IMG/VR virus record: IMGVR_UViG_3300037882_000287
Location: 1-34,956 of that record
Length of the DNA: 34,956 nucleotides
Direction: 5' to 3' (one strand)
Origin: a virus
Part shown: positions 400 to 20,348 of the stretch, one piece after another
Layout of the letters: each line of letters begins with the position of its first letter
Numbering within the stretch: position 1 is the stretch's first letter
Made by a program: the position numbers and the translations under genes
Notes under the pieces: model-generated
Told to the model about the DNA's origin: nothing
Seen by the model: the letters and a program-made list of their open reading frames with translations, nothing else
Database searches by the model: none

Positions 400-605
400 G
401 GGCGCTACCCGCTGACAAGCACCAGCCACCAGTGACGCTGACCGATCCAGACATGATGTCGCAGGACATAAGCAAGCCGCTAGGCCAATGGTTTGCCAGC
501 CGCCTATCGGCACGCGAAGATGTAAGACGAGTATTTCCCAATCGAAAGGACGATCAACTAAATGGCAACAACTATGATTTCAGTTCACGTAAAAAGCAAG
601 CGTAA
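396..605 (+). CDS. Hypothetical protein, 69 aa
   Basis: The ATG at 396 overlaps the stop of the preceding short frame (ATGA) and follows GGGAGGGGGCG. The 69-aa product is hydrophilic and has no recognised motif. Its first two thirds are GC-rich like the genes before it. The last 15 codons overlap the start of the next gene at 562, so the frame may have lost its own 3' end. The 11-mer GGACGATCAAC lies within it at 548. Function unknown. Confidence 0.45.
   Translation: MRALPADKHQPPVTLTDPDMMSQDISKPLGQWFASRLSAREDVRRVFPNRKDDQLNGNNYDFSSRKKQA
548..558 (+). repeat. Dispersed 11-mer GGACGATCAAC, copy 1
   Basis: This is an exact copy of the 11-mer found seven times on the + strand. It ends three bases before the ATG at 562 and overlaps the 3' end of the 69-aa gene, where it is read as D-D-Q. 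Confidence 0.85.
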
Positions 606-1011
606 AGAAACGCGCAAGGTGTATACTTATCCTGTAAGTAATTATACCCCACCCAAAACTTATTACCCATCCCAAACACCGACCACATTCACAACAGCCG
701 TTGAGAATAGTGCAAAAGCGTTGGGTATTACTCCGGAGGAATATAATCGACGAGATTCATTAGTACGTACAATGGCGAAGGCATGTAAGCTTTCGTTCGG
801 AGATTCCTGTTTTTTCGTATCTCCCGATTTTCATTCACAGTATGGGCCCTGTTTTGTCTCTTCTAAGGCACTATGTTATGAAGATATTAAAGCTGACACA
901 TGGGTTGAAGGAAGCCCACCCAAGATACTTACCTTACGTAGTGTGCGCCTAGGTAGTACCATCCTTGCTAATGACTTCCATCTTTCTAAGGTAAATCCGC
1001 ATCATGTATAA
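562..1011 (+). CDS. Hypothetical protein, 149 aa, before the amidoligase island
   Basis: An ATG follows AAAGGA with an 11-base gap; an in-frame ATG at 577 is an alternative. The N-terminal 50 residues are basic and then rich in Tyr, Pro and Thr, probably disordered. The rest contains six cysteines and a mixed hydrophobic pattern that suggests a small folded domain. I do not recognise the family. Composition changes here from GC-rich to the AT-richer style of the main early genes. The stop overlaps the next ATG at 1004 by eight bases, so the gene is probably co-translated with the class-I amidotransferase. Confidence 0.65.
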   Translation: MATTMISVHVKSKRKETRKVYTYPVSNYTPPKTYYPSQTPTTFTTAVENSAKALGITPEEYNRRDSLVRTMAKACKLSFGDSCFFVSPDFHSQYGPCFVSSKALCYEDIKADTWVEGSPPKILTLRSVRLGSTILANDFHLSKVNPHHV

Positions 1012-1801
1012 AATTGGTTATTCTCCCGGTACAGGGACGGGTTATCCATTCCGGGGTTTGTTGGGGGGTCCAGACACCGACATTAATTTGCGAAATAATC
1101 CGGACGCACTTCAAGACTGTGCTTTTATTATACTCTGGGGTGGGTTGGATATCCATCCGAAATATTATGATGAACAAAAACACCCCACCTCAGATGCTAT
1201 TTTTGAGGGTACCCGAGACACTTTTGAGTTCAGCATAGCAACCAAAGCCATCGATCTAGGGATCCCCATTGTTGGTGTCTGTCGCGGCGCACAATGGCTG
1301 TCCATTTTGGCGGGAGGTAGTCTATATCAGAATATTCAACACCACAATGAATCATCTCATATGGTCAAATGGCGACGCAACGATGGTGTTGGTTGGTCAA
1401 ACGGGGTAGTTAATAGTGCTCACCATCAAGCCATGTGTCTTCATAGTATGCCCCCACAAGAGGTGATTCCTTTGGCGTGGAGTTCTTCTAGCCATATATG
1501 TGAGTATATGGATGGGGATAGTATTGGTTCAGATCCCACTCATGTTCTGGAAGCATGTTATTTCCCTAAAATTAAGGGGCTAGCTATCCAAGGTCATCCT
1601 GAATGGCTAGATAGCCAGCATCCATTTGTAGATATGAGTAGGGTTTGGTTTAACAACCACATACTTCCGGAGATTCAGGGGGCGACGCTACAAGAACCCC
1701 CACTTTCGACTAGCATAGCGGATACAGCGGATTTTATTGTAATGATGAAATCAACAGCTGGGCGTGTTCCGAAGAAACTAGTGGTTCTTAACAACCAGTG
1801 A
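1004..1801 (+). CDS. Class-I glutamine amidotransferase / peptidase C26-like hydrolase
   Basis: The 265-aa protein has the class-I GATase fold of the PuuD (gamma-glutamyl-GABA hydrolase) type. The nucleophile elbow GVCRGAQ carries Cys93, GHPEW supplies His198 and Glu200, and an SAHHQ motif lies near residue 140. The oxyanion strand ILWGGLDI is at residues 43-50. Members cleave gamma-glutamyl or similar amide bonds and act as stand-alone hydrolases. Next to two amidoligases it probably trims or reverses a gamma-glutamyl-type linkage, or releases ammonia; the substrate is not visible. The C-terminal 40 residues after the domain are unassigned. The ATG overlaps the preceding gene, and a weak AAGG lies upstream. 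Confidence 0.85.
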   Translation: MYKIGYSPGTGTGYPFRGLLGGPDTDINLRNNPDALQDCAFIILWGGLDIHPKYYDEQKHPTSDAIFEGTRDTFEFSIATKAIDLGIPIVGVCRGAQWLSILAGGSLYQNIQHHNESSHMVKWRRNDGVGWSNGVVNSAHHQAMCLHSMPPQEVIPLAWSSSSHICEYMDGDSIGSDPTHVLEACYFPKIKGLAIQGHPEWLDSQHPFVDMSRVWFNNHILPEIQGATLQEPPLSTSIADTADFIVMMKSTAGRVPKKLVVLNNQ

Positions 1802-1808
1802 CTTTATA

Positions 1809-1896
1809 TCCGGGATTGATGAAATTGGTAGACATATCGGACTTAAACTCCGATGCATGACATTGCGTGTGGGTTCGAGTCCCACATCCCGGACCA
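1809..1896 (+). tRNA. tRNA-Leu (anticodon UAA)
   Basis: The acceptor arms TCCGGGA (1809-1815) and TCCCGGA (1887-1893) pair fully, and CCA is encoded at 1894-1896. The anticodon arm is TCGGA-CTTAAAC-TCCGA with TAA at 1844-1846, which reads UUA codons. The T arm TGTGGG-TTCGAGT-CCCACA is intact. A long variable region with a GCA/TGC stem shows the type II tRNA expected for leucine. It lies on the early strand, seven bases before the 11-mer at 1903. Phage tRNAs of this kind usually supply a codon that is rare in the host. Confidence 0.95.
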
Positions 1897-1902
1897 ACTA
1901 CA

Positions 1903-1913
1903 GGACGATCAAC
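1903..1913 (+). repeat. Dispersed 11-mer GGACGATCAAC, copy 2
   Basis: Exact copy, and the only one outside any coding frame. It sits between the CCA end of tRNA-Leu and the ATG at 1920. A partial match (AACGATCAAG) follows at 1962. Confidence 0.85.
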
Positions 1914-1919
1914 ATCATC

Positions 1920-2102
1920 ATGAATAATGGCATAGCTAAAGTACATTGTACTTGTAATCATAACGATCAAGATAAAATGTATGGGTCACAAGTTCGCATA
2001 GCGAACGCAACCCAGAAAAATGCGGGGAGTGACAGCAAAGTAGTGGTTCGTTGTACTGTGTGCTCTAAGGAACACACTATTTCTAAAGGAGCTTTGAAGT
2101 GA
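1920..2102 (+). CDS. Small zinc-binding phage protein
   Basis: The 60-aa product has two paired ligand sets, CTCNH near the N terminus and CTVC near the C terminus, around the stretch SQVRIANATQK. Small phage proteins with this CxC...CxxC arrangement are common and probably bind one zinc ion; their role is unknown. I chose the ATG at 1920 because the longer frame would start inside the tRNA gene. No strong ribosome site precedes it, since the 11-mer GGACGATCAAC occupies that position and its GGA may serve. The stop overlaps the GTG start of the next gene. Confidence 0.75.
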   Translation: MNNGIAKVHCTCNHNDQDKMYGSQVRIANATQKNAGSDSKVVVRCTVCSKEHTISKGALK

Positions 2103-2434
2103 AAGTAATTCGTTATTTCCACATGAATACAAGAAGGTATTGGAATCCTTCAGGACTTCCTCATACTCGCAGTAAGTACGCGGGAGCGACAGTTCGGGTA
2201 GAGGGTGATACCGACGATCCGGCACAGGTTGATGTGCAGGTAACCTTCTGCTCTATCAAGGACGCTTACTGCCGCAAGACCGGGCGTGAGGAAGCATTGA
2301 AGGCCAAGACTAAGGTAGTTATGCTGCGATACCTGAGCCGTGAACTTCTTGATATTGCGAAGCAGGCCAACTACGGATTCCCAAAACAAGGGGATTGGGA
2401 TTTTGCTATGAAGTATTTTCTTCCTAAGGAGTAA
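2099..2434 (+). CDS. Conserved-looking hypothetical phage protein, 111 aa
   Basis: It starts at GTG 2099, overlapping the previous stop (GTGA) and preceded by AAAGGAG, a near-perfect ribosome site. The product is a soluble mixed alpha/beta protein. Its N-terminal half has strand-like VRVEGDTDDPAQVDVQVTF, and its C-terminal half is helical with a basic stretch (ALKAKTKV). No catalytic motif is evident. Its place just before the amidoligase genes makes a role in the island possible but unproven. Confidence 0.7.
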   Translation: MKVIRYFHMNTRRYWNPSGLPHTRSKYAGATVRVEGDTDDPAQVDVQVTFCSIKDAYCRKTGREEALKAKTKVVMLRYLSRELLDIAKQANYGFPKQGDWDFAMKYFLPKE

Positions 2435-2437
2435 TTG

Positions 2438-2722
2438 ATGAGGCCTTGGCTTGAGTTTGATGGTGTATATGGAGCTTGTGGCGTAGGAGTAATTTTTAAT
2501 TTTGGTGCCCACAAGGATTCGCTTTATAGTACCTTTGGAACCCCCACCGATCATTATGGAGGAATTGGTTATAACATCGCCGGGTTTGTAAATACAAAGA
2601 TTTGTAAAAAGGTATACGAAGATATCCAACAACACGCAGAGATTGTTTTCCAGTCCCCGGTAAAAACGAACGCTAACACGGGTCGGCATTTCTTTTTCAT
2701 TGTGTACAAACGTAAGGAGTGA
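2438..2722 (+). CDS. Hypothetical protein in amidoligase island, 94 aa
   Basis: The ATG at 2438 follows TAAGGAG by six bases and is preferred to the TTG at 2435. The small protein is rich in Gly and aromatic residues (YGACGVGVIFNFG near the start, GRHFFFIVYK near the end), which suggests a compact beta-rich fold. I do not recognise it. It is tightly packed between the 111-aa gene and the COOH-NH2 ligase, each with its own strong ribosome site, so it is probably made together with them. Confidence 0.65.
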   Translation: MRPWLEFDGVYGACGVGVIFNFGAHKDSLYSTFGTPTDHYGGIGYNIAGFVNTKICKKVYEDIQQHAEIVFQSPVKTNANTGRHFFFIVYKRKE

Positions 2723-2728
2723 GTAATA

Positions 2729-3493
2729 ATGCGTCTTGGTTCTGATCCCGAAGTCTTCCTTGTCAATCCACAAGGTAAGCATATTGCCATTAATGGTTAT
2801 ATTAACCACGGCAAGTATAACCCCCTCCAGATTGAGGGGCTCCCTTCCGGCTTTACGTTGCAGGAGGATAACGTAGCACTTGAGTATGGCATCCCACCAT
2901 GCAAGACTGCTGACGAATTCGTTGAAGCCATTCAACAGGTCATGGAAGAATCGCGCAAGTGGTTGCCTACTGACTTGGATTTCTCTAAGCTCTCCTGTAC
3001 TCTCTTTGAGGACGATCAACTACGCCATCCGCTAGCCCTTAAGTTTGGATGTGAGCCTGACTATTGTGCCTACACTGACAAGGTTAATCCTTCTCCCAAT
3101 CCTCCTGATTGGCGCATGCGTAGTGCTGGTGGTCATATCCATGTGGAGACGGATCAGAAGCCTTCTGCTGTAGGCATGGCGATGGACTTATGTTTGGCTG
3201 TTCCTGCTGTTCTCATGGACGATGGTATTGAGCGCAAGCAGATGTACGGTAAAGCCGGAGCTATTCGATATAAGCCTTATGGTTTGGAGTATCGTACATT
3301 GTCTAATTTCTGGATCTTCTCTCCGGAGACTATTCGATGGGCGTGGCATCAGACCGAGCGTGCTGTCCATCTTGTCAAGGAAGGCCTGCTTCCCAGCAAG
3401 AGTGTATTGAGCCGTGTCCGCCGCTGCATTAATACCAACGATAAGGACATGGCTTTTCGTTTGATTGATAAGTACAACTTAGAGGTAGTTTAA
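2729..3493 (+). CDS. Phage COOH-NH2 ligase (amidoligase, glutamine synthetase-like fold)
   Basis: The 254-aa protein carries the ordered motifs of the phage COOH.NH2 ligase family first defined around phage phiEco32. These are GSDPEVFL (4-11), EDNVALEYGIPP (46-57), GCEPDYCAY (107-115), RSAGGHIHVE (131-140) and GLEYRTLSNFW (185-195). In this fold the acidic and His residues of these motifs bind Mg-ATP and catalyse ATP-dependent amide formation between a carboxylate and an amine. The substrate is unknown. The length suits the family and all core motifs are present, so it should be active. A TAAGGAG site precedes the ATG. The 11-mer repeat lies inside it at 3010. Confidence 0.9.
   Translation: MRLGSDPEVFLVNPQGKHIAINGYINHGKYNPLQIEGLPSGFTLQEDNVALEYGIPPCKTADEFVEAIQQVMEESRKWLPTDLDFSKLSCTLFEDDQLRHPLALKFGCEPDYCAYTDKVNPSPNPPDWRMRSAGGHIHVETDQKPSAVGMAMDLCLAVPAVLMDDGIERKQMYGKAGAIRYKPYGLEYRTLSNFWIFSPETIRWAWHQTERAVHLVKEGLLPSKSVLSRVRRCINTNDKDMAFRLIDKYNLEVV
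3010..3020 (+). repeat. Dispersed 11-mer GGACGATCAAC, copy 3
   Basis: Exact copy within the COOH-NH2 ligase gene, read in frame as E-D-D-Q-L (residues 94-98), outside the catalytic motifs. Confidence 0.85.
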
Positions 3494-3494
3494 T

Positions 3495-4103
3495 ATGGAA
3501 TGGTTTTCTCACAATTGGCGTGATATCCATAAGTATTACAAGGATACTTATATCAAGCTGTATGAGCATTCTGGAGAAAAACTGTGGCACGTCACTAGCG
3601 TAAATGAAGATCGGGTCATGCTGATTAACCCGGAAGATGGCGAGGATGTGGTTGAGATTAAGCTTTGGGAGGACAAGCCTTTCAATGTTGAGATGATCTT
3701 GCCCCAAAAGGCTACTTTTCAAATGGGTAAAGTTGCGTTGTGTTTATCCAGAGTTCCTGCACAAATGTTTAAGCGGGGGATTTCTTCAGAGAATTGTATT
3801 ATTAACACACTAATGCCGGGAGGATGGCAGCCCAGCACACTAAGCTTCTCTCGCCTAACTGCCTATGTCCAAAAACAGGAGTATTTTAGTCCAACTGAAC
3901 TACTTCGAGGAGATGGGAAGATTAGTGTTGCTTTTGGCAGACGGTGGTCCTGTACTTGTGATGGTAATATATTTGTAGATACCAAACATTGTGGGACAAT
4001 CTTATTTAACCAAAAAACATATGACATCAATCTTGTTGTAAAAGCTGAGTTTATTCGTGCAATTGCACAGTATCCCGATATGAAAGAGTATACCTCTAAT
4101 TAA
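3495..4103 (+). CDS. Hypothetical island protein, 202 aa
   Basis: The start ATG lies one base after the preceding stop. The first 80 residues form a strand-rich domain (KLWHVTSVNEDRVMLINPEDG...). A conserved-looking segment follows, FQMGKVALCLSRVPAQMFKRGIS at about residues 75-97. The pattern FQxGxxAxxLxRxPxxxxKRGI appears to me to recur in phage proteins found beside amidoligases, but that is recollection and not a search. No catalytic motif is apparent. Its position between the two amidoligase genes suggests a substrate-binding or accessory role in the same pathway. Confidence 0.65.
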   Translation: MEWFSHNWRDIHKYYKDTYIKLYEHSGEKLWHVTSVNEDRVMLINPEDGEDVVEIKLWEDKPFNVEMILPQKATFQMGKVALCLSRVPAQMFKRGISSENCIINTLMPGGWQPSTLSFSRLTAYVQKQEYFSPTELLRGDGKISVAFGRRWSCTCDGNIFVDTKHCGTILFNQKTYDINLVVKAEFIRAIAQYPDMKEYTSN

Positions 4104-4104
4104 T

Positions 4105-4902
4105 ATGGCCGAAACTCTTGAACAAGTTTGGGCATCCTCCTTGGATGCAAGTAGTATTCCTCCAGAGCTTAACGATCAGTTTGTTTGTGGTCTAGAGCTA
4201 GAAGTAGAGGATGTGCGTGAGTTCAACGATCTAGACTTACTGAATGTGAATTCTGTAGAGGATGGGTCATTGCGTAATAGTGGCCGAGAATTTCTCCTGC
4301 CTCCAGATACCTTGGAAGGACAGATGCATAGGCTCCGGACTCTATATAACCCTAAAAACAGATTCATTATTAGGGGGCCTGATGCCTACTCTACACGTAC
4401 TAGTGTCCATGTACATGTAAACTGTCGTTGCCTTTCTAGGACATCTGTACGCAGCATTGTTCTGCTGTACAGTATCTTTGAGCCGGTGTTCTTTAGGTTT
4501 GCTGGTAGTGCTCGTGCCAACAATATCCATTGTGTCCCCCTGCACTGGACGCATCTCTCTAATTATTATGGAGGAGCCTTGGAACTATTGATTAAAAAGT
4601 GGTCTAAATACACGGCATTAAACCTCAAACCGTTGTCTAAACTAGGTACTTTGGAGTTTAGGCACCTTTATGGAACGGACGATCAACAAGTAATTGAGAC
4701 TTGGCTCCGCATGATTCGTGTTATCTGGGAGGCTGGACGTAATCTTCAGATTAAGCGTCAGTTGGTTTTGGGAACTATGACTAAACTTAAGGAAATTGAA
4801 CAACAGCTTATTACTGATGGTGTGCATAAGTATGCAAAAGAACCCATCGACTTTCGCCTAGAAGATAATCTTCTGGATTTTAAATTGCAATTTCTTCCTT
4901 AA
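4105..4902 (+). CDS. Second amidoligase (Amidoligase_2-like)
   Basis: The 265-aa protein shows the motif series of the Amidoligase_2 family: GLELEVE (29-35), DGSLRNSGREFL (53-64), SVHVHVN (100-106) and GTLEFRHLYGT (181-191). These correspond to the Glu-rich ATP/metal strands, the HxH motif and the EFR motif of the glutamine synthetase-like fold. The family is predicted to join a carboxylate to an amine using ATP. Together with the ligase at 2729 this gives two distinct amidoligases in one operon, so two different bonds or substrates are likely. It starts one base after the previous stop, with no clear ribosome site, and is probably translationally coupled. Confidence 0.88.
   Translation: MAETLEQVWASSLDASSIPPELNDQFVCGLELEVEDVREFNDLDLLNVNSVEDGSLRNSGREFLLPPDTLEGQMHRLRTLYNPKNRFIIRGPDAYSTRTSVHVHVNCRCLSRTSVRSIVLLYSIFEPVFFRFAGSARANNIHCVPLHWTHLSNYYGGALELLIKKWSKYTALNLKPLSKLGTLEFRHLYGTDDQQVIETWLRMIRVIWEAGRNLQIKRQLVLGTMTKLKEIEQQLITDGVHKYAKEPIDFRLEDNLLDFKLQFLP
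4677..4687 (+). repeat. Dispersed 11-mer GGACGATCAAC, copy 4
   Basis: Exact copy in the second amidoligase gene, read as T-D-D-Q-Q directly after the EFRHLYGT motif. Confidence 0.85.
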
Positions 4903-4907
4903 TAATT

Positions 4908-6089
4908 ATGTGTGGTATTGTTGCAGTAATTTGCAAAAAAGACGCAGGCTTTTATCAGAAAGATATAGCGGTCTTTGAGCAGTTGCTTGATGTGGGGCAT
5001 CTCCGAGGAGATGACGCCACAGGAGTAATCACTGTTCTAAAGAACACGGACTTCTATATTGATAAAGATTCTGGAACGTCTCAGTGGTTTTTGTATAGTT
5101 TTGATTCATTGGAATCACGAAAGGAAGCACTTAAGACTGGCTATGCTCTGATTGGGCATAATCGCTATGGCACAATTGGTAAGAAAGATGATGCACAAAA
5201 TGCACATCCTTTTCTTGTTGAGGATCATTTTGCCATGGTTCACAATGGCTCCCTAACCAATCATAAGACTTTGGCTGACACTACAGTAGATAGTGAGGCA
5301 CTTAGTATTGTGATTGAGAAAGCAATGAATGGTGACTCAGCGAAACCTAAGACAGAGGCTTTAGAGAGCATCTTGTCTGATGTGTATGGTGCATATGCCT
5401 GTGTGTGGTATAATCAGGCAGACCATACTATCGGATTTGTTCGTAATTCTCAACGTCCCCTCTGGTATGTAGAGACAGACGACAACTACTATCTTGCTTC
5501 TGAGGCAGGAATGCTGGCGTGGATTCTTTCACGTAATGGTATTTCTCCCAAGGAATTGCATGAGGTCAAGGTAGACCATCTCTACACGATCGATTTGGAT
5601 GAATTTAAGCATCCGATGACTGTGGAGCCCCTCACAATAAAAAAATATACGCCCTCCACGACGAGCACTGGTACTTCGGGGGAGGGCACAAACATTATCA
5701 AGACTAATCACACTCTGTCGAAGAATTATCTCAAGAGGTTCCTAAAGGAGAACAAGGGAAAGTATGTAGACTTCTACGTATATGATTACACAGAAACCAC
5801 GATTGGTGATCCCAACTGCTCGAAATACCTAATCCAAGGTCAAACAGATCTTTGGAGCTGGGAGCATTGTATTAATGTTATTGTTGATGCCAAGAAACTG
5901 GGCATTGATGATTTTGCTATACGTCTAGATGATATTTACTTTAGAGGGGACATTGAATCCTTGCAATTTAACAAGACTACTAATGAGGTAGATGTCTGGC
6001 TAGATCCCGATTCTATTACTATTGTACAACCTAAACTAACCTTGAAAAATGCGCACGCCTATAAAATTGCGAGTACAGATACTCACTAA
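4908..6089 (+). CDS. Class-II (Ntn-type) glutamine amidotransferase
   Basis: The product begins MCGIV, so Met removal would expose the catalytic Cys2 of the N-terminal-nucleophile GATase fold. Supporting motifs are GHLRGDDATG (30-39), GHNRYGTIG (83-91), NAHPF (98-102) and VHNGSLTN (111-118), typical of the GlmS/PurF/AsnB glutaminase domain. The domain would release ammonia from glutamine, presumably for a ligase in the same operon. A Thr/Ser/Gly linker (about 246-262) joins it to a C-terminal domain of about 130 residues that I do not recognise. That domain lacks a visible synthetase motif, so the acceptor is elsewhere. The last 41 bases overlap the ATP-grasp gene. Confidence 0.9.
   Translation: MCGIVAVICKKDAGFYQKDIAVFEQLLDVGHLRGDDATGVITVLKNTDFYIDKDSGTSQWFLYSFDSLESRKEALKTGYALIGHNRYGTIGKKDDAQNAHPFLVEDHFAMVHNGSLTNHKTLADTTVDSEALSIVIEKAMNGDSAKPKTEALESILSDVYGAYACVWYNQADHTIGFVRNSQRPLWYVETDDNYYLASEAGMLAWILSRNGISPKELHEVKVDHLYTIDLDEFKHPMTVEPLTIKKYTPSTTSTGTSGEGTNIIKTNHTLSKNYLKRFLKENKGKYVDFYVYDYTETTIGDPNCSKYLIQGQTDLWSWEHCINVIVDAKKLGIDDFAIRLDDIYFRGDIESLQFNKTTNEVDVWLDPDSITIVQPKLTLKNAHAYKIASTDTH
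5651..5687 (+). other. Inverted repeat in the GATase linker
   Basis: GCCCTCC (5651-5657) and GGAGGGC (5681-5687) can form a 7-bp GC stem with a 23-base loop. It lies where the encoded protein is a Thr/Ser/Gly linker. No U-tract follows, so it is not an intrinsic terminator. It may be a scar at a domain junction or an mRNA pause element. Confidence 0.35.
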
Positions 6090-6759
6090 CAAGCTAAAGA
6101 GTGGGGGGCTACGTCGTGTAGCCAAAGCCCTCCGTCCCACTCTAGGTTATCGTGTCCTGCGAACGAGGGTAGTAAAACCCCAACGCAAGCAATTTCGATA
6201 CGGAGATTTGAAGAACAAGATTGAACAGTACCAGTGGTTTGCTAACAATAACATTCCCTCTGTGGAATTCACTACCAGTCGGCTTGAAGCACAGGCTTGG
6301 TTGGAATTGGGGAATGTGGTCTTCTGTCGTACCCTAACTAGGGCCAGTGAGGGGCGGGGCATTGTGGTCGCCGAAACGGACGATCAACTTGTCCCCGCTC
6401 CGGTATATACCAAGTATACCAAGAAGAAGTTCGAATATCGTGTTCACATGTTCAAAGACACTGTGGTCCGTGTTCTAGAGAAGCGTAAGCGTTCTGGATG
6501 GGAAGGTGAACGAGACACTCGTGTACGGAATACAGCCAACGGATATGTGTTTTGTCAGGAATTGTATGCTCCTCTGCCCGAAGGCCTGATTGAATTGGCG
6601 ACCAAGGCCCGTAAAGTAACTGCTTCCGACTTTGTTGGCGTAGATTTGGGATATAATGTAAAGAAAAACCATCTTTTTGTTATCGAGGTTAATAGTGCCC
6701 CCGGCATTGAGGGCTCTTCTGTTACTGCATATACCACAGAGATTCTAAAACATGTATAA
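6049..6759 (+). CDS. ATP-grasp ligase-like protein
   Basis: The 236-aa protein is basic at its N terminus and then shows ATP-grasp hallmarks. These are a Lys/Arg-Gly loop (TRASEGRGIVVAE, 97-109), the strand KKFEYRVHMF (126-135), VGVDLGY (197-203) and the metal-binding strand VIEVNSAPGIEG (211-222). ATP-grasp enzymes activate a carboxylate as an acyl phosphate and couple it to an amine, often amino acid by amino acid. In the phage amidoligase clusters such an enzyme is predicted to build a short peptide or tag. It is shorter than most family members, so the N-terminal pre-grasp domain may be reduced. The start overlaps the GATase gene by 41 bases. Confidence 0.8.
   Translation: MRTPIKLRVQILTNKLKSGGLRRVAKALRPTLGYRVLRTRVVKPQRKQFRYGDLKNKIEQYQWFANNNIPSVEFTTSRLEAQAWLELGNVVFCRTLTRASEGRGIVVAETDDQLVPAPVYTKYTKKKFEYRVHMFKDTVVRVLEKRKRSGWEGERDTRVRNTANGYVFCQELYAPLPEGLIELATKARKVTASDFVGVDLGYNVKKNHLFVIEVNSAPGIEGSSVTAYTTEILKHV
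6378..6388 (+). repeat. Dispersed 11-mer GGACGATCAAC, copy 5
   Basis: Exact copy in the ATP-grasp gene, read as T-D-D-Q-L (residues 110-114) just after the Gly-rich loop. Confidence 0.85.
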
Positions 6760-7483
6760 GATTAATGTTAACAAGCTAGACCATCATTATTCAGAGATAA
6801 GTCAAAGCAATTCTCTTCGATATATGATGCTTAAGAGAGATTCTGAACACACCTTTAACAATACTACAAATGAGTTTAAATGTCGAGATTTCTTCAATGA
6901 CTTTGCATACTCTTTGAATACTGGAGAAGAGTTTACTAAATATGGAATGTTCTCCACCGCTGCAAAATTAGATGTAGAGGATAGGGTTTGGATGTTGCTT
7001 AAGTATACTGCATTCGGACTGAAGCATAATATTAATGCAGTCCTACTCCCTAAGCTTAAAGAAACATGGGCTGATATTGATATTAATATCCATCCGAATA
7101 TTATAGTCAATCAAAGGAAGCCTACCTGTACACTACTAATTAGTCTGAACAAGGCCTGCTTTGCTTCAACTTTCCGTATCTCGGTAATTACGCAAGTCCT
7201 GCGAAATTGTAATCGAGACACCTGTTTTGAAAATTGGGAGCAGTGTTATAACATCTCACTTCCGGGAGGTGCTTTGGAACACTGGTGTTCTATCTTGTGT
7301 GAACGGGGCACTAGTCCAGAACTACTCACTAGGTTTTACACAGGACAATTCAAACTTAAAAAAGAGCCTCTTTATAAACTAAACCATATCTATCAAAGAC
7401 ATTCTCCTGGAACAATAGAATTTATCCAAGGAGTACACGACACTGGCTGGATTGGTTGGTTCTCTAACTCAGAAGTGGTATAA
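6752..7483 (+). CDS. Hypothetical protein at end of amidoligase island, 243 aa
   Basis: The start ATG overlaps the stop of the ATP-grasp gene by eight bases, which indicates coupled translation. The protein is soluble and rich in Asn, Lys and aromatic residues. It has a cluster of cysteines at about residues 150-200 (RNCNRDTCFENWEQC and WCSILCERG) that could bind a metal or form disulfides. I recognise no family. Operon position suggests it belongs to the modification pathway, perhaps as the modified substrate or an acceptor protein; that is a guess from context. Confidence 0.65.
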   Translation: MYKINVNKLDHHYSEISQSNSLRYMMLKRDSEHTFNNTTNEFKCRDFFNDFAYSLNTGEEFTKYGMFSTAAKLDVEDRVWMLLKYTAFGLKHNINAVLLPKLKETWADIDINIHPNIIVNQRKPTCTLLISLNKACFASTFRISVITQVLRNCNRDTCFENWEQCYNISLPGGALEHWCSILCERGTSPELLTRFYTGQFKLKKEPLYKLNHIYQRHSPGTIEFIQGVHDTGWIGWFSNSEVV

Positions 7484-7735: not shown

Positions 7736-8470
7736 ATGGCTGATTTTGTGAGGCATACCAGTTGTGAATCATGTGGTTCCAGTGATGCGAAAGCTAATTA
7801 TAGTGATGGTAGTTCTTACTGCTTTTCTTGTAGCACTTATGCCGGCCCCAACGCGGGATCGTGGCAACCACCACAGGAATACTCAGATAACAAACGATTA
7901 ATCCACATCCCAGAAGATATCTCTTTTGAATACTCCGAGGAGGCGTTAAAGTGGGTGGCTAAGTATGACCTTACAGCAGCCGACTTGATTCGCCATAAAG
8001 TGTATTTCAGTAAGTGGCGTAATCAGTTGCTGTTCTTTTATGAGCGGTTTATGGGAGGAGATGTTGGTTGTCTGCTTGCACGAAACTTCAATTCTAATAC
8101 CACTAAATATCACCTAATTGGCTCACGAGAGGAGGTCATGCCTGTCTATAAGTCTGCGTTCGATTGTGATACATTGGTACTTACGGAGGATTCTATCAGT
8201 GCAATTAAAGTATCTCGGGTGTGTGATGCCATGCCCTGCTTAGGTAGTACCATTGGTCTACAGAAGATTGCTCGCATCAAGAAAATGGGGTATGAGAAGA
8301 TCAGGATTTGGCTGGACTCGGATAAAGCACTTAGCTCGTCGGGACTGGCACAAAAGTTGGCGTTCATCTGCGATGACGTAAGGACGATCAACACCGATCT
8401 TGACCCTAAATGCTACCCTCACTTTACTATTAAGGAGTTAGTTTATGGCCATGCACATATCAGCACATAA
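7736..8470 (+). CDS. DNA primase (T7 gp4 N-terminal-like)
   Basis: The 244-aa protein has a zinc-binding module with Cys10, Cys13, Cys29 and Cys32. A TOPRIM-type core follows: LTEDSISA (149-156, catalytic Glu151) and IWLDSDKA (191-198, Asp194 and Asp196). This matches the primase half of T7 gene 4 in order and size, and it would make short RNA primers for lagging-strand synthesis. Unlike T7, no helicase is fused to it; the helicase is a separate gene at 9311. The ATG is preceded by GAGAAATG. The 3' end overlaps the next gene by 26 bases, and an 11-mer repeat lies at 8382. Confidence 0.88.
   Translation: MADFVRHTSCESCGSSDAKANYSDGSSYCFSCSTYAGPNAGSWQPPQEYSDNKRLIHIPEDISFEYSEEALKWVAKYDLTAADLIRHKVYFSKWRNQLLFFYERFMGGDVGCLLARNFNSNTTKYHLIGSREEVMPVYKSAFDCDTLVLTEDSISAIKVSRVCDAMPCLGSTIGLQKIARIKKMGYEKIRIWLDSDKALSSSGLAQKLAFICDDVRTINTDLDPKCYPHFTIKELVYGHAHIST
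8382..8392 (+). repeat. Dispersed 11-mer GGACGATCAAC, copy 6
   Basis: Exact copy near the 3' end of the primase gene. Here it is read in another frame, as R-T-I-N, and not as D-D-Q. Conservation is therefore at nucleotide level. Confidence 0.85.
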
Positions 8471-11413: not shown

Positions 11414-11808
11414 GCCCCAATCTTGATGAAGCCCTATGTAAGAAGTACCCAAAAATCTTTGTTAATCGTCATGAGAGTCCACAAAAATCCCCTATGTTTT
11501 GGGGATTTGAATGTGGAGATGGTTGGTATGACCTGATCGATCAATTGTGCCACAATCTACAATTTAACACAGATCACAACAGCCACATCAAAGACAAGTA
11601 TCCCCAAGTCGTTGCAATGCAAGTAAAAGAAAAGTTTGGTGAGCTTCGCTTCTATGTTCAGGAAGCTAGTGATGTACAGTATGCTGTGATCCATTTTGCT
11701 AGCGAGCTGTCTGGTCACATCTGTGACGTGTGTGGCAAGCCCGGTAAACGGGGAGGTAGTGGATGGATTAGAACTCGCTGTGAGGAACATGCACACACTG
11801 ACGCTTGA
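11410..11808 (+). CDS. Phage protein with C-terminal zinc site, 132 aa
   Basis: GTG 11410 overlaps the upstream stop (GTGA). The protein has FECGDGWYDLIDQLCHNLQF early, then VKEKFGELRFYV, and ends with a likely zinc site CDVCGKPGKRGGSGWIRTRCEEH. I recall this arrangement from many phage and prophage proteins of unknown role. The last 20 bases overlap the start of the DNA polymerase gene, whose ribosome site (GAGGAA) lies inside this frame. Confidence 0.75.
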   Translation: MSPNLDEALCKKYPKIFVNRHESPQKSPMFWGFECGDGWYDLIDQLCHNLQFNTDHNSHIKDKYPQVVAMQVKEKFGELRFYVQEASDVQYAVIHFASELSGHICDVCGKPGKRGGSGWIRTRCEEHAHTDA

Positions 11809-12847
11809 CACTGAAACAGACATCTATAACAATGGTAATCCCTTCGATCCACGAAACAAGCTTGTCCGTATTGGCTATCTTGAAGATAGTGGCGTAACAC
11901 AAGTAACCAATGATCTTCCTACGGTCCAGCAGAAAATCGACAAGGCATCCCTCATTGTCGGATTTAATTTCAAGTTTGACTATCATTGGCTGGGTAAATA
12001 CGGTTGCGTATTGGCAGGTAAGCGTATATGGGACTGCCAAGCGGCTGATTACATCCTTAGTCACCAGCAACACATATTTCCTAGTTTGGATGATTGCTGT
12101 GTTCGTCTTGGTCTTGGTAGCAAGCTGGATATCATTAAGTCTGATTATTGGGACCGTGGTATTACTACATCAGATGTGCCTCTATCTGTCCTAGATCCTT
12201 ATCTTAAACAAGACATTGAACTGACCCACAAGCTCTTCAAGTACCAATGGGATGCCTGTACCCCCGCTCAGCGCACACTGATCTTGCTGGATGGGGATGA
12301 CATGCACACCCTAGTGGAGATGGAACGGGAGGGTTTACTATTTAATGAGGAACTTTGTAAACAACGAGAACAAGAACTAGATGCACAAATTGAAACTGTA
12401 CTTCAGCAACTTGCTGCTATCTATCCAGAAGTACCTATTAACTTTAATTCTAATGATGATCTGTCTGCCTTTCTATATGGTGGAAGAATCACGCAGGTTC
12501 GTAAGGTACCTGACGGATTCTATAAAACTGGAATTAAGGCGGGTCAAATTAAATTCCGCAAGGAAGAAGTAGATCATACCCTCCCGGCTTTATACAAGCC
12601 TGTTCGCGGCTCCGAACTCAAGAAGGCTGGCTTCTACGCCACCAATGAGCCTACGTTACGTAAACTAGCGGGTAATAAAAAGATCGTGGGACTTGTCCTA
12701 GAACTTGCCAAGCTAGATAAAATCAACGGAACGTATTATAAAGGTATTCCCAAGATTAACAAAGAGATGAACTGGCCTGCCAAGATACTTCACAGTAACT
12801 TTAACACTACTCAAACTAGGACAGGTCGGCTCAGCAGTAATAAGCCT
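11789..12847 (+). CDS. DNA polymerase family A, N-terminal part (exon 1)
   Basis: The ATG at 11789 follows GAGGAA and gives MHTLTLDTETD. Exonuclease motifs are complete: ExoI DTE (7-9), ExoII NFKFD (60-64) and ExoIII YLKQD (138-142). This part therefore has the 3'-5' proofreading domain plus the thumb region. It ends with RTGRLSSNKP (344-353), the segment just before the palm in family-A enzymes. Unspliced reading meets TAA at 12848, exactly at the predicted 5' splice site of a group I intron. After splicing the frame continues into 13546. The polymerase active site is not encoded here but in a separate frame at 13989. Confidence 0.88.
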
Positions 12848-13545
12848 TAACGATAGGGCTTTTAAAACATCGTGAATTCAGGGGAACTCCAGACCGGAAA
12901 ATCCTGAGCCAAGCTAATACCATAATTACCATAGGAGGTACTACATGGATGAGATTAAACGTCTTTATGAAGATACCGATTTGACTATTGAAGAGATTGC
13001 CTATAAAACAGGCTACTCTGTACATGCTGTGTGGAGCATCACGACAGCATATCCAAAGGAATATCGGAATGCTCGTAAAAAGAGAAACTACTCTAAATCA
13101 AAACTTGGAGACAAGAATCCTCAATTCGGGATGACTGGTTCTAAGAATGATAAATACATTGGTGAAGTCTCTGACGGCAAGGGCTACATCATGGTTATGA
13201 AACCAGATTGGTACACTGGCCGTAAAGGGTCTAAACATGTATTCAAACACCAAGTAGTTATGTGTGAGTCTCTGGGTATCACAGAGATACCTAAAGGCTT
13301 CTGTGTTCATCACGTAGATGAAGATAAAACTAATAACAATCTTATCAATCTTGCTTTGATGACCACATCTGCACATATGCGTTTACATCAATTAGAAGGT
13401 GCAACGACTAGAGCAAAAGCTCGTAGGGTCCAAGTGGACTCGAAGCGCGATGGAGAGGTCACCCTTGGGGCCTCTCGTGATATAGTCTGATCTATATGGG
13501 AACATATAGAGTTTATATGGAAACGATATAAACGTAACAATAATG
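12848..13545 (+). ncRNA. Group I intron (subgroup IA-like) in the DNA polymerase gene
   Basis: The fold can be traced by hand. P1 pairs exon AAGCCT (12842-12847) with GGGCTT (12856-12861) and leaves the required U-G pair at the splice site. P3 is CATCGTG (12868-12874) with CGCGATG (13446-13452). P4 is TCAGG with CCTGA in the P and Q elements near 12878-12925. P7 is GACTA (13406-13410) with TAGTC (13483-13487). P8 is GAGAGG with CCTCTC (13453-13476). Two small hairpins between P7 and P3' (GAGCAAAAGCTC and GTCCAAGTGGAC) match P7.1/P7.2 of IA introns. The last base is G13545. An HNH gene lies in the P6 region. Confidence 0.9.
12945..13490 (+). CDS. Intron-encoded HNH homing endonuclease
   Basis: The 181-aa protein starts at ATG after AGGAGGT, a strong ribosome site, within the intron. 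Residues 1-45 resemble a helix-turn-helix (LTIEEIAYKTGYSVHAVWSI) for target recognition. The HNH core is at 101-148: HQVVMCESLG, then HHVDEDKTNNNLINL (His122, His123, Asp125, Asn131) and SAHMRLH. It would cut an intronless polymerase gene and so spread the intron. The last 30 or so codons run through the P7, P3 and P8 strands of the intron core, so protein and ribozyme share sequence. Confidence 0.9.
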   Translation: MDEIKRLYEDTDLTIEEIAYKTGYSVHAVWSITTAYPKEYRNARKKRNYSKSKLGDKNPQFGMTGSKNDKYIGEVSDGKGYIMVMKPDWYTGRKGSKHVFKHQVVMCESLGITEIPKGFCVHHVDEDKTNNNLINLALMTTSAHMRLHQLEGATTRAKARRVQVDSKRDGEVTLGASRDIV

Positions 13546-13611
13546 AATCAACAAAATTTCAGCGGAGATATTCTTGACATATTCGTCAGCAGATATGATT
13601 CAGCGACTTGA
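13546..13611 (+). CDS. DNA polymerase exon 2 (end of the N-terminal fragment)
   Basis: After splicing, SSNKP joins NQQNFSGDILDIFVSRYD, which is the expected family-A sequence between the thumb and palm motif A. The frame then reads S-A-T and stops at TGA 13609-13611. The palm is not reached, so the spliced product is a 374-residue N-terminal fragment. The alternative is a second intervening sequence (about 13609-13985): joining ACT 13608 to CAA 13986 would give SRYDSAT-QVIVSCD, with natural length and frame. The 3' boundary would end in A, not the G that group I introns need, so I cannot show splicing. Confidence 0.7.
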   Translation, partial: NQQNFSGDILDIFVSRYDSAT

Positions 13612-13786
13612 ATACGAATCCGATATTACTAACTTCATGTCCCGCGTAACGGAATCTGATGCAAGATCCGTGGCGTTAGATTTGTGGAAACACTACCCCC
13701 GCCAAACCCTTATGCTAACAGCATCCTTAGCGCAAACACAGCATACTAATAAACAAGTCCCTGCTCTTTTTGTTAGGAAAGTATAA
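13574..13786 (+). CDS. Hypothetical protein between polymerase fragments, 70 aa
   Basis: TTG 13574 has a well-spaced GGAG (13564-13567); an ATG at 13595 is the alternative. The frame overlaps polymerase exon 2 by 38 bases in another frame. The product is helical (LEYESDITNFMSRVTESDARSVALDLWKHYPRQTLML) with no recognised motif. Its stop TAA shares a base with the next ATG (TAATG), and the following gene overlaps the polymerase palm fragment. The chain of couplings argues that this is translated and is not dead intron sequence. Confidence 0.55.
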   Translation: MTYSSADMIQRLEYESDITNFMSRVTESDARSVALDLWKHYPRQTLMLTASLAQTQHTNKQVPALFVRKV

Positions 13787-13992
13787 TGCCGGTATCTAGT
13801 CCAACGACCACTAACTATGATTGGGTTACATATGCGCCGGTTGAGTCTTGGATGATAGTGGATTTAGACCAGGCCAGCACGGCAACAGGCATAAATGCTA
13901 TTTCGTATCAACAAGCACTAGAGAAATACAGGCGACAGCGCGATCAACTTAAGTCGGTACGTAAGCCCCCTGTTGTCCTTAATGACAAGTGA
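13786..13992 (+). CDS. Hypothetical protein between polymerase fragments, 68 aa
   Basis: The ATG overlaps the preceding stop (TAATG), and its own stop overlaps the GTG of the polymerase palm gene (GTGA). The product has a polar N-terminal half and a helical basic C-terminal half (YQQALEKYRRQRDQLKSVRKPPVV). The sequence GCGCGATCAACTT at about 13938 is a near match to the dispersed 11-mer. It is not recognised and shows no resemblance to polymerase sequence. Confidence 0.5.
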   Translation: MPVSSPTTTNYDWVTYAPVESWMIVDLDQASTATGINAISYQQALEKYRRQRDQLKSVRKPPVVLNDK

Positions 13993-14705
13993 TTGTATCT
14001 TGTGATGCGGCACAGCTAGAGTGGCGCACTGCGGTAGAGTTGAGTGGTGATTTAGTAGGTCTTGACGAGATTAGGAACAAGCTAGATACTCATTCACTTA
14101 ATCAGCAGGCTTTTGCCCTACCATCCCGTCTAATTTCCAAGATCTATCTGTTTCGTACCATCTTTCGTGGCAGTGGCTGGGCCTTTGCTAAAGATCCGGA
14201 CTTCTCTCATGTATCCAGTTCCCCCGAGTTTTGGGAGCGGATTAACGAGAAATTCTACGCAAAGTATCATCAGCTAGATTCCTGCCACAAGCAGTGGGCC
14301 GAGCTTGTTATGCGAGACAAGCCCATCATTGGCCCCTTGGGAAGGGCATGGACGATCAACATTCCCACCAATCCCCACACATGGGCCCGTGAGATTCCAT
14401 GGACAACCCTGACTAATTATCCTGTACAAGGTACTGGCGCTGACATCATGAAGATTGCCCGTATCTCGGCGTACAGGAAGATGAAGCAGCGTAAAATCCA
14501 CGCGGATTTCATAACCACCGTCCACGACTCAATTGTCGTAGACACTCCCAACGAGAATATTCCTGCCGTAGCTCAGACGTTCCACGATGCCTTTGCGGAT
14601 ATTATTCCGAACATCAAACGCCTGTTTGGCTACGAATGGAAGGTTCCCTTAACATGTGAAGTGAAAGCCGGTCCTAATTTAAAGGACTTGACAATGTACC
14701 CTTAA
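13989..14705 (+). CDS. DNA polymerase family A, C-terminal palm/fingers fragment
   Basis: This frame starts at GTG 13989, three codons before motif A (VSCDAAQLEWR, Asp6). It carries motif B (Arg47, Lys51, Phe55, Phe59 with the standard spacing) and motif C (VHDSIVVD, His179-Asp180). The whole catalytic site is therefore here, while proofreading and thumb lie in the fragment encoded at 11789-13611. Phe at the position of T7 Tyr526 should favour dNTPs over dideoxynucleotides. Upstream in this frame there is only one sense codon before a TGA. The two fragments must associate, or be joined by RNA splicing, to give a working enzyme. Confidence 0.85.
   Translation: MIVSCDAAQLEWRTAVELSGDLVGLDEIRNKLDTHSLNQQAFALPSRLISKIYLFRTIFRGSGWAFAKDPDFSHVSSSPEFWERINEKFYAKYHQLDSCHKQWAELVMRDKPIIGPLGRAWTINIPTNPHTWAREIPWTTLTNYPVQGTGADIMKIARISAYRKMKQRKIHADFITTVHDSIVVDTPNENIPAVAQTFHDAFADIIPNIKRLFGYEWKVPLTCEVKAGPNLKDLTMYP
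14350..14360 (+). repeat. Dispersed 11-mer GGACGATCAAC, copy 7
   Basis: Exact copy in the polymerase palm gene, read as W-T-I-N (residues 121-124). It is the last copy seen in the window, about 6 kb after copy 6. Confidence 0.85.
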
Positions 14706-18704: not shown

Positions 18705-20348
18705 TTGATTCAACAACGATTTAGGAATAGCTTTGCAGAAAACACTTTCCGAAACAAATACGCCCAAGGCCCTAGCGATACGTGGGACTGCCTTGCCGAG
18801 CGTCTGGTTGAAGATGTTTGTGGAAGTCGGGGGGGAGCCAGCCAAGCTCTTATGTCAAAAGAGGATCGGACCGATCTCACAGAGCATATTAAACAAATGC
18901 GATTCCTTCCGGGTGGAAGGTATCTCTATTACGCAGGACGACCTTATAAGGCGTACAACAATTGCTACCTTCTCCGCGCTGAAGAAGACACCCGAGAAGA
19001 ATGGAGCAACGTAACGTGGCGGGCCATGTCCTGCTTGATGACAGGAGGTGGAATTGGAATTGACTACTCAAGACTCAGACCAGCGGGCAAATCTCTTAGC
19101 AGGACTGGAGGTGTGGCTTCCGGCCCACTCCCACTCATGTATGCAATTAATGAAATTGGGAGAAATGTTATGCAAGGGGGATCAAGGCGCAGCGCAATCT
19201 ATGCTTCGCTTAATTGGCAACATGAAGACATCCCTGCATTTCTTACAGCTAAAAATTGGTCAGATCAAATCAAGCAACTGAAGGAACAGGATTTCAATTT
19301 CCCTGCTCCCTTGGACATGACCAACATCAGTGTCAACTATGATGATGCTAGTCTTATTGGGGGATTGACTAATAATCCTGTATTCATGGCGAACTGTAAA
19401 CAAGCCATGATGACGGGGGAACCCGGCTTCAGCTTTAACTTTGGTGATAAACAAAACGAGACTCTTAGAAATGCCTGTACGGAAGTCACGTCAGAAGACG
19501 ACAGCGACGTCTGTAATCTCGGTTCCATTAATCTCGGAGCCATAAAAGACATTGATGAGTTCCGAGATGTCGTTACTCTTGCATCCAAGTTCCTTGTCTG
19601 TGGTACGTTACGGGCTGACTTACCATATAGTAAAGTATACACTGTCCGAGAAAAGAACAGGAGACTTGGCCTAGGCTTAATGGGTATCCATGAATGGCTC
19701 CTACAACGCGGATATAAATACGAGGTAACAGATGAACTCCACAAATGGCTCGAAGTATACCGAGATTACAGTAAATCGGCTGCGGACGAGCACAGTGCTC
19801 GATTCTTTATCTCGCAACCTGTGGCATATCGAGCAATTGCACCGACGGGAACGATTGGAATTCTTGCAGGAACAACTACAGGAATTGAACCGCTGTTCGC
19901 TGTTGCTTACAAACGTCGTTACGTCACTGAAGGAACAAAGTGGAAGTACGAGTTCGTTGTTGACGGAACAGCCCAAGGACTGATTGAAAAGTATGGAGTA
20001 GCTCCGGATAAGATCGAGTCCGCATTAGACTTAGCAGGAGATTATGAACGAAGGATCAAGTTCCAAGCAGATATTCAAGATTACGTTGACATGTCGATAT
20101 CAAGCACAATCAATCTCCCGTCTTGGGGTTCCAAGGGAAATAGTGAGGGAGATGGGGCAAGATTTACTAACACACTTGCCGCATACGCACCCAGACTACG
20201 GGGTTTTACATGCTACCCTGATGGAAGTCGAGGAGGTCAACCCCTAACCCCCATCCCCTATGAAGAGGCTATGAAGCATAGGGGAACCGTGTTTAGCGAG
20301 CACGATATCTGTGATATTAGTGGCAAAGGCGGTAGCTGTGGCGTTTAA
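18705..20348 (+). CDS. nrdJ: Ribonucleotide reductase, probably class II (B12-dependent)
   Basis: The start is TTG 18705, nine bases after AGGAAG. Motifs of the ten-stranded barrel are present: NNCYLL (first redox cysteine), TGGGIGIDYSRLRP, QGGSRRSA, the thiyl-radical and proton-relay motif NACTE, VCNLGSINL (second redox cysteine), APTGTIGILAGTTTGIEP and a C-terminal CDISGKGGSCGV tail that can re-reduce the site. No radical-generating small subunit or glycyl-radical tail is nearby, which points to class II using adenosylcobalamin. At 547 aa it is compact. It reduces ribonucleotides to supply dNTPs for phage replication. Confidence 0.88.
   Translation: MIQQRFRNSFAENTFRNKYAQGPSDTWDCLAERLVEDVCGSRGGASQALMSKEDRTDLTEHIKQMRFLPGGRYLYYAGRPYKAYNNCYLLRAEEDTREEWSNVTWRAMSCLMTGGGIGIDYSRLRPAGKSLSRTGGVASGPLPLMYAINEIGRNVMQGGSRRSAIYASLNWQHEDIPAFLTAKNWSDQIKQLKEQDFNFPAPLDMTNISVNYDDASLIGGLTNNPVFMANCKQAMMTGEPGFSFNFGDKQNETLRNACTEVTSEDDSDVCNLGSINLGAIKDIDEFRDVVTLASKFLVCGTLRADLPYSKVYTVREKNRRLGLGLMGIHEWLLQRGYKYEVTDELHKWLEVYRDYSKSAADEHSARFFISQPVAYRAIAPTGTIGILAGTTTGIEPLFAVAYKRRYVTEGTKWKYEFVVDGTAQGLIEKYGVAPDKIESALDLAGDYERRIKFQADIQDYVDMSISSTINLPSWGSKGNSEGDGARFTNTLAAYAPRLRGFTCYPDGSRGGQPLTPIPYEEAMKHRGTVFSEHDICDISGKGGSCGV

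Follow-up and report, generated by a model that had tools for sequence, protein, structure and literature searches.

A phiEco32-type amidoligase cassette in an environmental viral genome and its cassette-specific partner genes

Gene content of the island

The window, by which we mean the whole 34,956-nucleotide stretch of viral DNA analysed here, carries a compact set of genes for amide chemistry close to its start. A preliminary description of this DNA had noted five such enzymes here, and this is confirmed: they lie at 1004-6759, and all of the open reading frames are where that description had put them. The list below also includes a tRNA gene and a zinc-ribbon ORF that it had missed.

562..1011, + strand: u562, 149 aa, new family; its 3' end overlaps the GAT1 start
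1004..1801, + strand: GAT1, Peptidase_C26 / class-I GATase-like, gamma-glutamyl hydrolase-like
1810..1896, + strand: tRNA-Leu(UAA), passenger between GAT1 and L2; CCA encoded
1920..2102, + strand: zinc-ribbon ORF, 60 aa, passenger outside the core
2099..2434, + strand: u2099, passenger
2438..2722, + strand: u2435/2438, about 94 aa, sporadic passenger
2729..3493, + strand: L2, phiEco32-type COOH-NH2 ligase type 2 (PF14395)
3495..4103, + strand: X, 202 aa, cassette-specific, between the two ligases
4105..4902, + strand: AL, Amidoligase_2 (PF12224)
4908..6089, + strand: GAT2, class-II glutamine amidotransferase (Ntn, Cys2) with an uncharacterised C-terminal domain
6049..6759, + strand: AG, RimK-like ATP-grasp, nearest to alpha-L-glutamate ligases
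6752..7483, + strand: u6752, 243 aa, new family; optional module 3' of AG

L2, X, AL, GAT2, AG and u6752 are contiguous, neighbouring genes being a few bases apart or slightly overlapping, and form one operon. GAT1 is separated from L2 by the tRNA-Leu, the zinc-ribbon ORF, u2099 and u2435/2438. The cassette adjoins a replication primase of the Toprim type (7736-8470), and a primase lies within 4 kb of the island in 84 of 102 islands. Searching 10 proteins against the PADLOC models gave 0 matches, and hence no sign of an anti-phage defence system.

Elsewhere in the window, DNA polymerase A is encoded in two ORFs (11696-12850 and 13989-14705, both + strand) flanking an HNH endonuclease (12945-13490); in the region 11696-14705 nothing matched a group I intron of Rfam at the gathering score. 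The match of the large subunit of ribonucleotide reductase (18705-20348, + strand, 547 aa) to its profile is broken into three stretches and lacks the model's N-terminal part, so that the protein is possibly truncated or divergent.

Enzyme families and active sites

The Pfam assignments of the five enzymes all exceed the curated cut-offs and the PHROGs assignments are concordant. GAT1 belongs to Peptidase_C26 (E=1e-20), L2 to PF14395 (E=8e-14; phrog_3815, E=4e-68), AL to Amidoligase_2 (E=3e-5; phrog_7469, E=3e-24), GAT2 to GATase_6 (E=1e-11; phrog_4736, E=1e-56) and AG to RimK (E=8e-6, 26.1 bits against a gathering score of 21; phrog_2599, E=2e-43). Near-invariant residues were counted over 111-170 homologues per enzyme family. 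These residues, including the catalytic ones, are kept in all five enzymes of the window, which bears out the earlier statement that the key motifs are intact: C93, H198, E200 and the HHQ motif in GAT1; C2, R86, N113, G114 and D128 in GAT2; D6, E8, D47, E52, H136, H138, R180 and R189 in L2; E31, E33, E62, H102, H104, E184 and R186 in AL; and K57, E129, R131, D199, E213 and N215 in AG, where E213 and N215 make up the E-x-N metal motif. Of 104 GAT2 homologues, 43 have a CxxC...CxxC ribbon in the C-terminal domain; the window and its near relatives lack it.

GAT1 had been described as a class-I glutamine amidotransferase. Pfam, PDB and NCBIfam comparisons favour reading it as a gamma-glutamyl-hydrolase-like Peptidase_C26 enzyme. 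Its PDB relatives are Lin1909, 7d4r and PuuD, and in NCBIfam it is matched best by the models for gamma-Glu-GABA hydrolase and gamma-glutamyl-CDP-amidate hydrolase. With the PuuD/SpuA-type gamma-glutamyl hydrolases it shares the fold family and the CRGxQ, HHQ and HPE motifs. GAT1 is thus closest to PuuD-type enzymes, although it scores under the equivalog cut-offs of both models, and far so for the PuuD type (30.1 versus 266 bits). In NCBIfam, AG matches three models, MptN, the RimK family and CofF, each of them for alpha-L-glutamate ligases, and its nearest PDB relatives are likewise RimK-family ligases; the rimK_fam score is 22.1 bits against a cut-off of 143.4, and all NCBIfam matches of the cassette proteins fall similarly far under the curated cut-offs. 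For the ligases L2 and AL, no sequence relatives were found in the PDB.

A variant of a known phage cassette

The island is a phiEco32-type cassette, as had been proposed. It combines an intact PF14395 ligase with clustered PF12224, class-II GATase and RimK-like ATP-grasp genes, and it contains X. No GGCT (AIG2-like) gene is present in the window, which has C26 instead; as PA11-type members do the same, GGCT varies among cassettes and does not define the type. The type is already known from phiEco32, LUZ24, PA11 and RIO-1, and the window holds a variant of it. Published accounts list parts of the cassette in LUZ24-like phages (PMC3890496, PMC3517423). In SU10, a relative of phiEco32, the ATP-grasp, GATase-II and GGCT proteins (gp82, gp85 and gp78) were detected by mass spectrometry, so cassette proteins are indeed made (PMC4281155).

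When 50,697 phage records were searched with tblastn (E-value limits 1e-3 for L2 and AL, 1e-5 for GAT2 and AG), matches were found in 312 records for L2, 310 for AL, 327 for GAT2 and 283 for AG, with a nearly identical breakdown by host genus. Annotated carriers include LUZ24, phiEco32, TC6/PA11, RIO-1, CVT22, Privateer, phiM6 and the crAss-like phage phi14:2. Among 84,980 cellular species genomes, PF14395 had 13 matches, all on MAG contigs. An IMG/VR scan with the single L2 sequence gave no matches; scans with L2 and ATP-grasp alignments led to about 160 environmental loci, which together with the annotated phages form 140 distinct clusters. As the loci fetched were the best matches to the window, this sample is biased towards its relatives. 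About 80-90 contigs show the core order L2-X-AL-GAT2-AG, the genes being separated by close to 0 bp, and its repetition across dozens of distinct contigs places the cassette far beyond chance.

The nearest annotated relative is Manatee Spring phage ctOsX528 (MW202697), whose L2 is the top match among annotated phages (43% identical). It shares GAT1-L2-X-AL-GAT2-AG and u6752 with the window but lacks u562 and has two tandem u6752 genes. The Kuraviruses phiEco32 and SU10 share the L2-X-AL-GAT2-AG order and the enzyme families; phiEco32, however, has two upstream genes of about 320-400 aa (the Y family) and GGCT after AG, whereas in the window L2 is preceded by u562 and the C26 hydrolase and AG is followed by u6752, with neither GGCT nor Y detected. 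In LUZ24-like Pseudomonas phages (UFV-P2, tf) the five-gene core lies next to the primase, as in the window, but GGCT replaces C26, Y genes are present and the primase and helicase are fused. PA11/TC6 and other Zobellviridae have the C26 hydrolase, GAT2, L2, X, AL and AG in common with the window; in these phages GAT2 precedes L2, Y precedes C26, and u562 and u6752 are missing.

Several further arrangements were seen. Members of the Y family (about 300 aa, with a single conserved Cys that frequently stands in a C-F/H-G context) lie upstream of the cassette in the LUZ24, phiEco32 and PA11 types and never occur together with u6752 (loci including L005, L010, L011 and L016). In three contigs assigned to Parcubacteria, Geobacteraceae and Stahlbacteria MAGs (L181, L182, L183), u6752 adjoins L2, followed in two of them by C26 and GGCT; AL and AG were not detected in these stretches, which have a different arrangement and are probably phage contigs. 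Loci L063 and L076 are one contig with two L2 loci in opposite orientation and inverted copies of the zinc-ribbon ORF and u2099, possibly a palindromic assembly artefact.

Cassette-specific partners and passengers

Sampling by L2 could not give a reciprocal test of partnership, and scans of IMG/VR seeded with partner genes alone provide one. All matches fell on cassette contigs: 8 of 8 for u562, 19 of 19 for X and 18 of 18 for u6752. The X and u6752 seeds were narrower clade alignments, the full alignments being too divergent, and since all three seeds come mainly from the wider clade of the window the result speaks for that clade. We conclude that u562, X and u6752 are cassette-specific, which is a new finding. 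In addition, u562, which has no match in Pfam or NCBIfam, directly precedes GAT1 in 14 contigs (median gap -4 bp).

The proposed co-occurrence of partner genes with the ligases therefore holds for the genes at 562, 3495 and 6752 and fails for those at 2099 and 2438, which are sporadic. In other loci u2099 is usually more than 1 kb from GAT1 (median gap 1351 bp), and both it and the zinc-ribbon ORF lie at variable distances from the cassette. The zinc-ribbon family (CxC...CxxC, with the pattern QDxxYGxxxRVxxxxK) was found in 13 fetched loci. Matches to the u2435/2438 family occur in only six fetched loci, and a direct scan seeded with it returned no relative. Together with the tRNA-Leu, these genes are sporadic passengers; the tRNA was also considered as a part of the pathway, and none of 30 scanned relatives has one at the matching place.

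The proteins X and u6752

X lies between both ligases in 93 of the 106 islands that have both. It is absent from a group with other gene orders, for example GGCT AG GAT1 L2 GAT2 AL, which includes phi14:2. AlphaFold2 predicts its structure with high confidence (pLDDT 94.1, pTM 0.87). No PDB fold matched better than E=0.1, and many of the best, insignificant matches were fragments of SH3/KOW/Tudor-containing proteins. Among the viral structures of BFVD, ten proteins matched at E<=1e-3, including those of the cassette carriers CW02 and Vp_R1, and family members are found in phrog_11055 and phrog_4877, neither of which has an assigned function. The family motif is RxPx(R/K)Q(W/Y/F)xRG. Its Gln is near-invariant, but the window has Met91 at this position, so the residue is not universally essential and is unlikely to be catalytic or modified. 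X showed no similarity to the C-terminal domain of GAT2.

The preliminary description had put forward u6752, as a cysteine-rich protein, and the small protein at 2438 as candidate substrates. Neither proposal is supported, and both are unlikely. The cysteine richness of u6752 is incidental, as one of its 8 Cys is invariant; besides the start Met, the family keeps only Cys44, His229 and Gly232, and it is missing from many islands. The six-locus distribution of the 2438 family, and the lack of a close relative in the direct scan, likewise speak against that protein. The family of u6752 has no Pfam or PHROGs match, its model is of fair quality (pLDDT 81) without a significant match in the PDB fold search, and profile comparison showed no similarity to the Y family. 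The conserved residues suggest that its Cys-His pair may form an enzyme or metal site.

Possible exchange of C26 and GGCT

Among 93 X-type islands, 73 have C26 only, 10 GGCT only, 4 both and 6 neither. Co-occurrence is thus rare (Fisher p 8e-7, in a test that ignores relatedness). On the L2 tree there are only five supported independent pairs, with a sign test p of 0.25-1. Five of the six islands with neither gene start at or just before L2, so that their upstream side is outside the sequence seen; in the sixth, Privateer, GGCT and C26 are absent from the four genes beside AG. The crAss-like type mostly has both. With so few independent changes, a replacement of C26 and GGCT, both gamma-glutamyl-cleaving families, by each other is suggested but not proven.

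Possible function of the cassette

As the most likely mechanism, at about even odds, we propose that the cassette performs ATP-dependent (gamma-)glutamyl ligation onto an acceptor in the host cytoplasm, coupled to gamma-glutamyl trimming. In favour of it are the recurring core order, the conserved catalytic residues, the resemblance of GAT1 to PuuD-type hydrolases and of AG to alpha-L-glutamate ligases, the tendency of C26 and GGCT to stand in for each other, the restriction of X and u6752 to cassette loci, the nearby primase and the SU10 proteins detected by mass spectrometry. The island would then be an early phage operon dedicated to glutamyl-amide chemistry. L2 and AL, of the GCS/GS fold, and the RimK-like AG would couple glutamate, or an amino acid like it, to the acceptor at the expense of ATP; for L2 and AL, glutamate specificity is the expectation from their fold family. 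GAT2, with glutamine or gamma-glutamyl groups as its substrate, would serve as a source of ammonia or take off a gamma-glutamyl group, and the C26 enzyme may hydrolyse a gamma-glutamyl amide and so trim or deprotect the product, a step for which some other phages probably use GGCT. The probable role of X is to keep the two ligases or the acceptor together, and u6752, in which a Cys and a His are invariant, would serve as an additional but optional enzyme or adaptor. Against this mechanism, family membership does not fix the substrate: domains of the C26-like and class-II GATase kinds can serve synthases as a source of ammonia as well. A bolder version, which we consider improbable, makes X the centre of a dedicated complex of several enzymes that produces an undescribed gamma-glutamyl-modified host molecule, with u6752 as a new Cys-His enzyme family of the pathway.

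The favoured first candidate for the acceptor is a peptidoglycan precursor, which is a published guess. Stem peptides contain gamma-glutamyl links, and the host names of the matching records are mostly Gram-negative genera. The published description predicts a peptidoglycan modification cassette (PMC5498523), and the same has been proposed for RIO-1-like and phiEco32 phages (PMC5498523, PMC10580990). In this more specific form of glutamyl ligation, the ligases would add unusual amide linkages to stem-peptide precursors and thereby block infection by later phages. We regard it as possible but somewhat doubtful, as none of the cassette genes was identified as a wall-specific partner such as a Mur ligase or lipid-carrier enzyme, and the literature searched yielded no experiment.

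The kinship of AG with RimK-family ligases, and the adjacent replication genes, would also fit a modification of protein: a protein of the host or the phage, such as one belonging to the ribosome or RNA polymerase, would have glutamate or short peptides added to it by AG and the ligases. This appears unlikely, since two extra ligases and two amide hydrolases exceed the needs of a RimK-like tag and X is the sole constantly encoded candidate protein target.

ATP-grasp enzymes are described as making graspetides (PMC8939145), but a ribosomal peptide of this kind, with 2438 or 6752 as precursor, is very improbable: no conserved precursor peptide gene, nor any constant small gene, recurs among the islands compared, 6752 is optional and resembles a folded Cys-His protein, and X is itself folded. 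We give equally little credence to the idea that these genes serve nitrogen or glutamine metabolism in general and aid ammonium assimilation by the host, as speculated for phage ZRK32 (PMC10945688), because the tight, obligate gene order, the cassette-specific X and the near-absence of PF14395 from cellular genomes argue for a dedicated pathway and not for borrowed metabolism.

The cassette is present in several hundred sequenced phage records and has more than 500 environmental matches. Its carriers include much-used E. coli and Pseudomonas phages, and in the open-access literature searched we found no report of an experimentally proven product, in agreement with the preliminary description. 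X, as a nearly constant protein confined to the cassette, offers a concrete knock-out target, and the gamma-glutamyl-cleaving step, as an apparently exchangeable part, gives concrete targets for assay. Should the host wall or a protein prove to be modified, a strategy widespread among phages would come to light.
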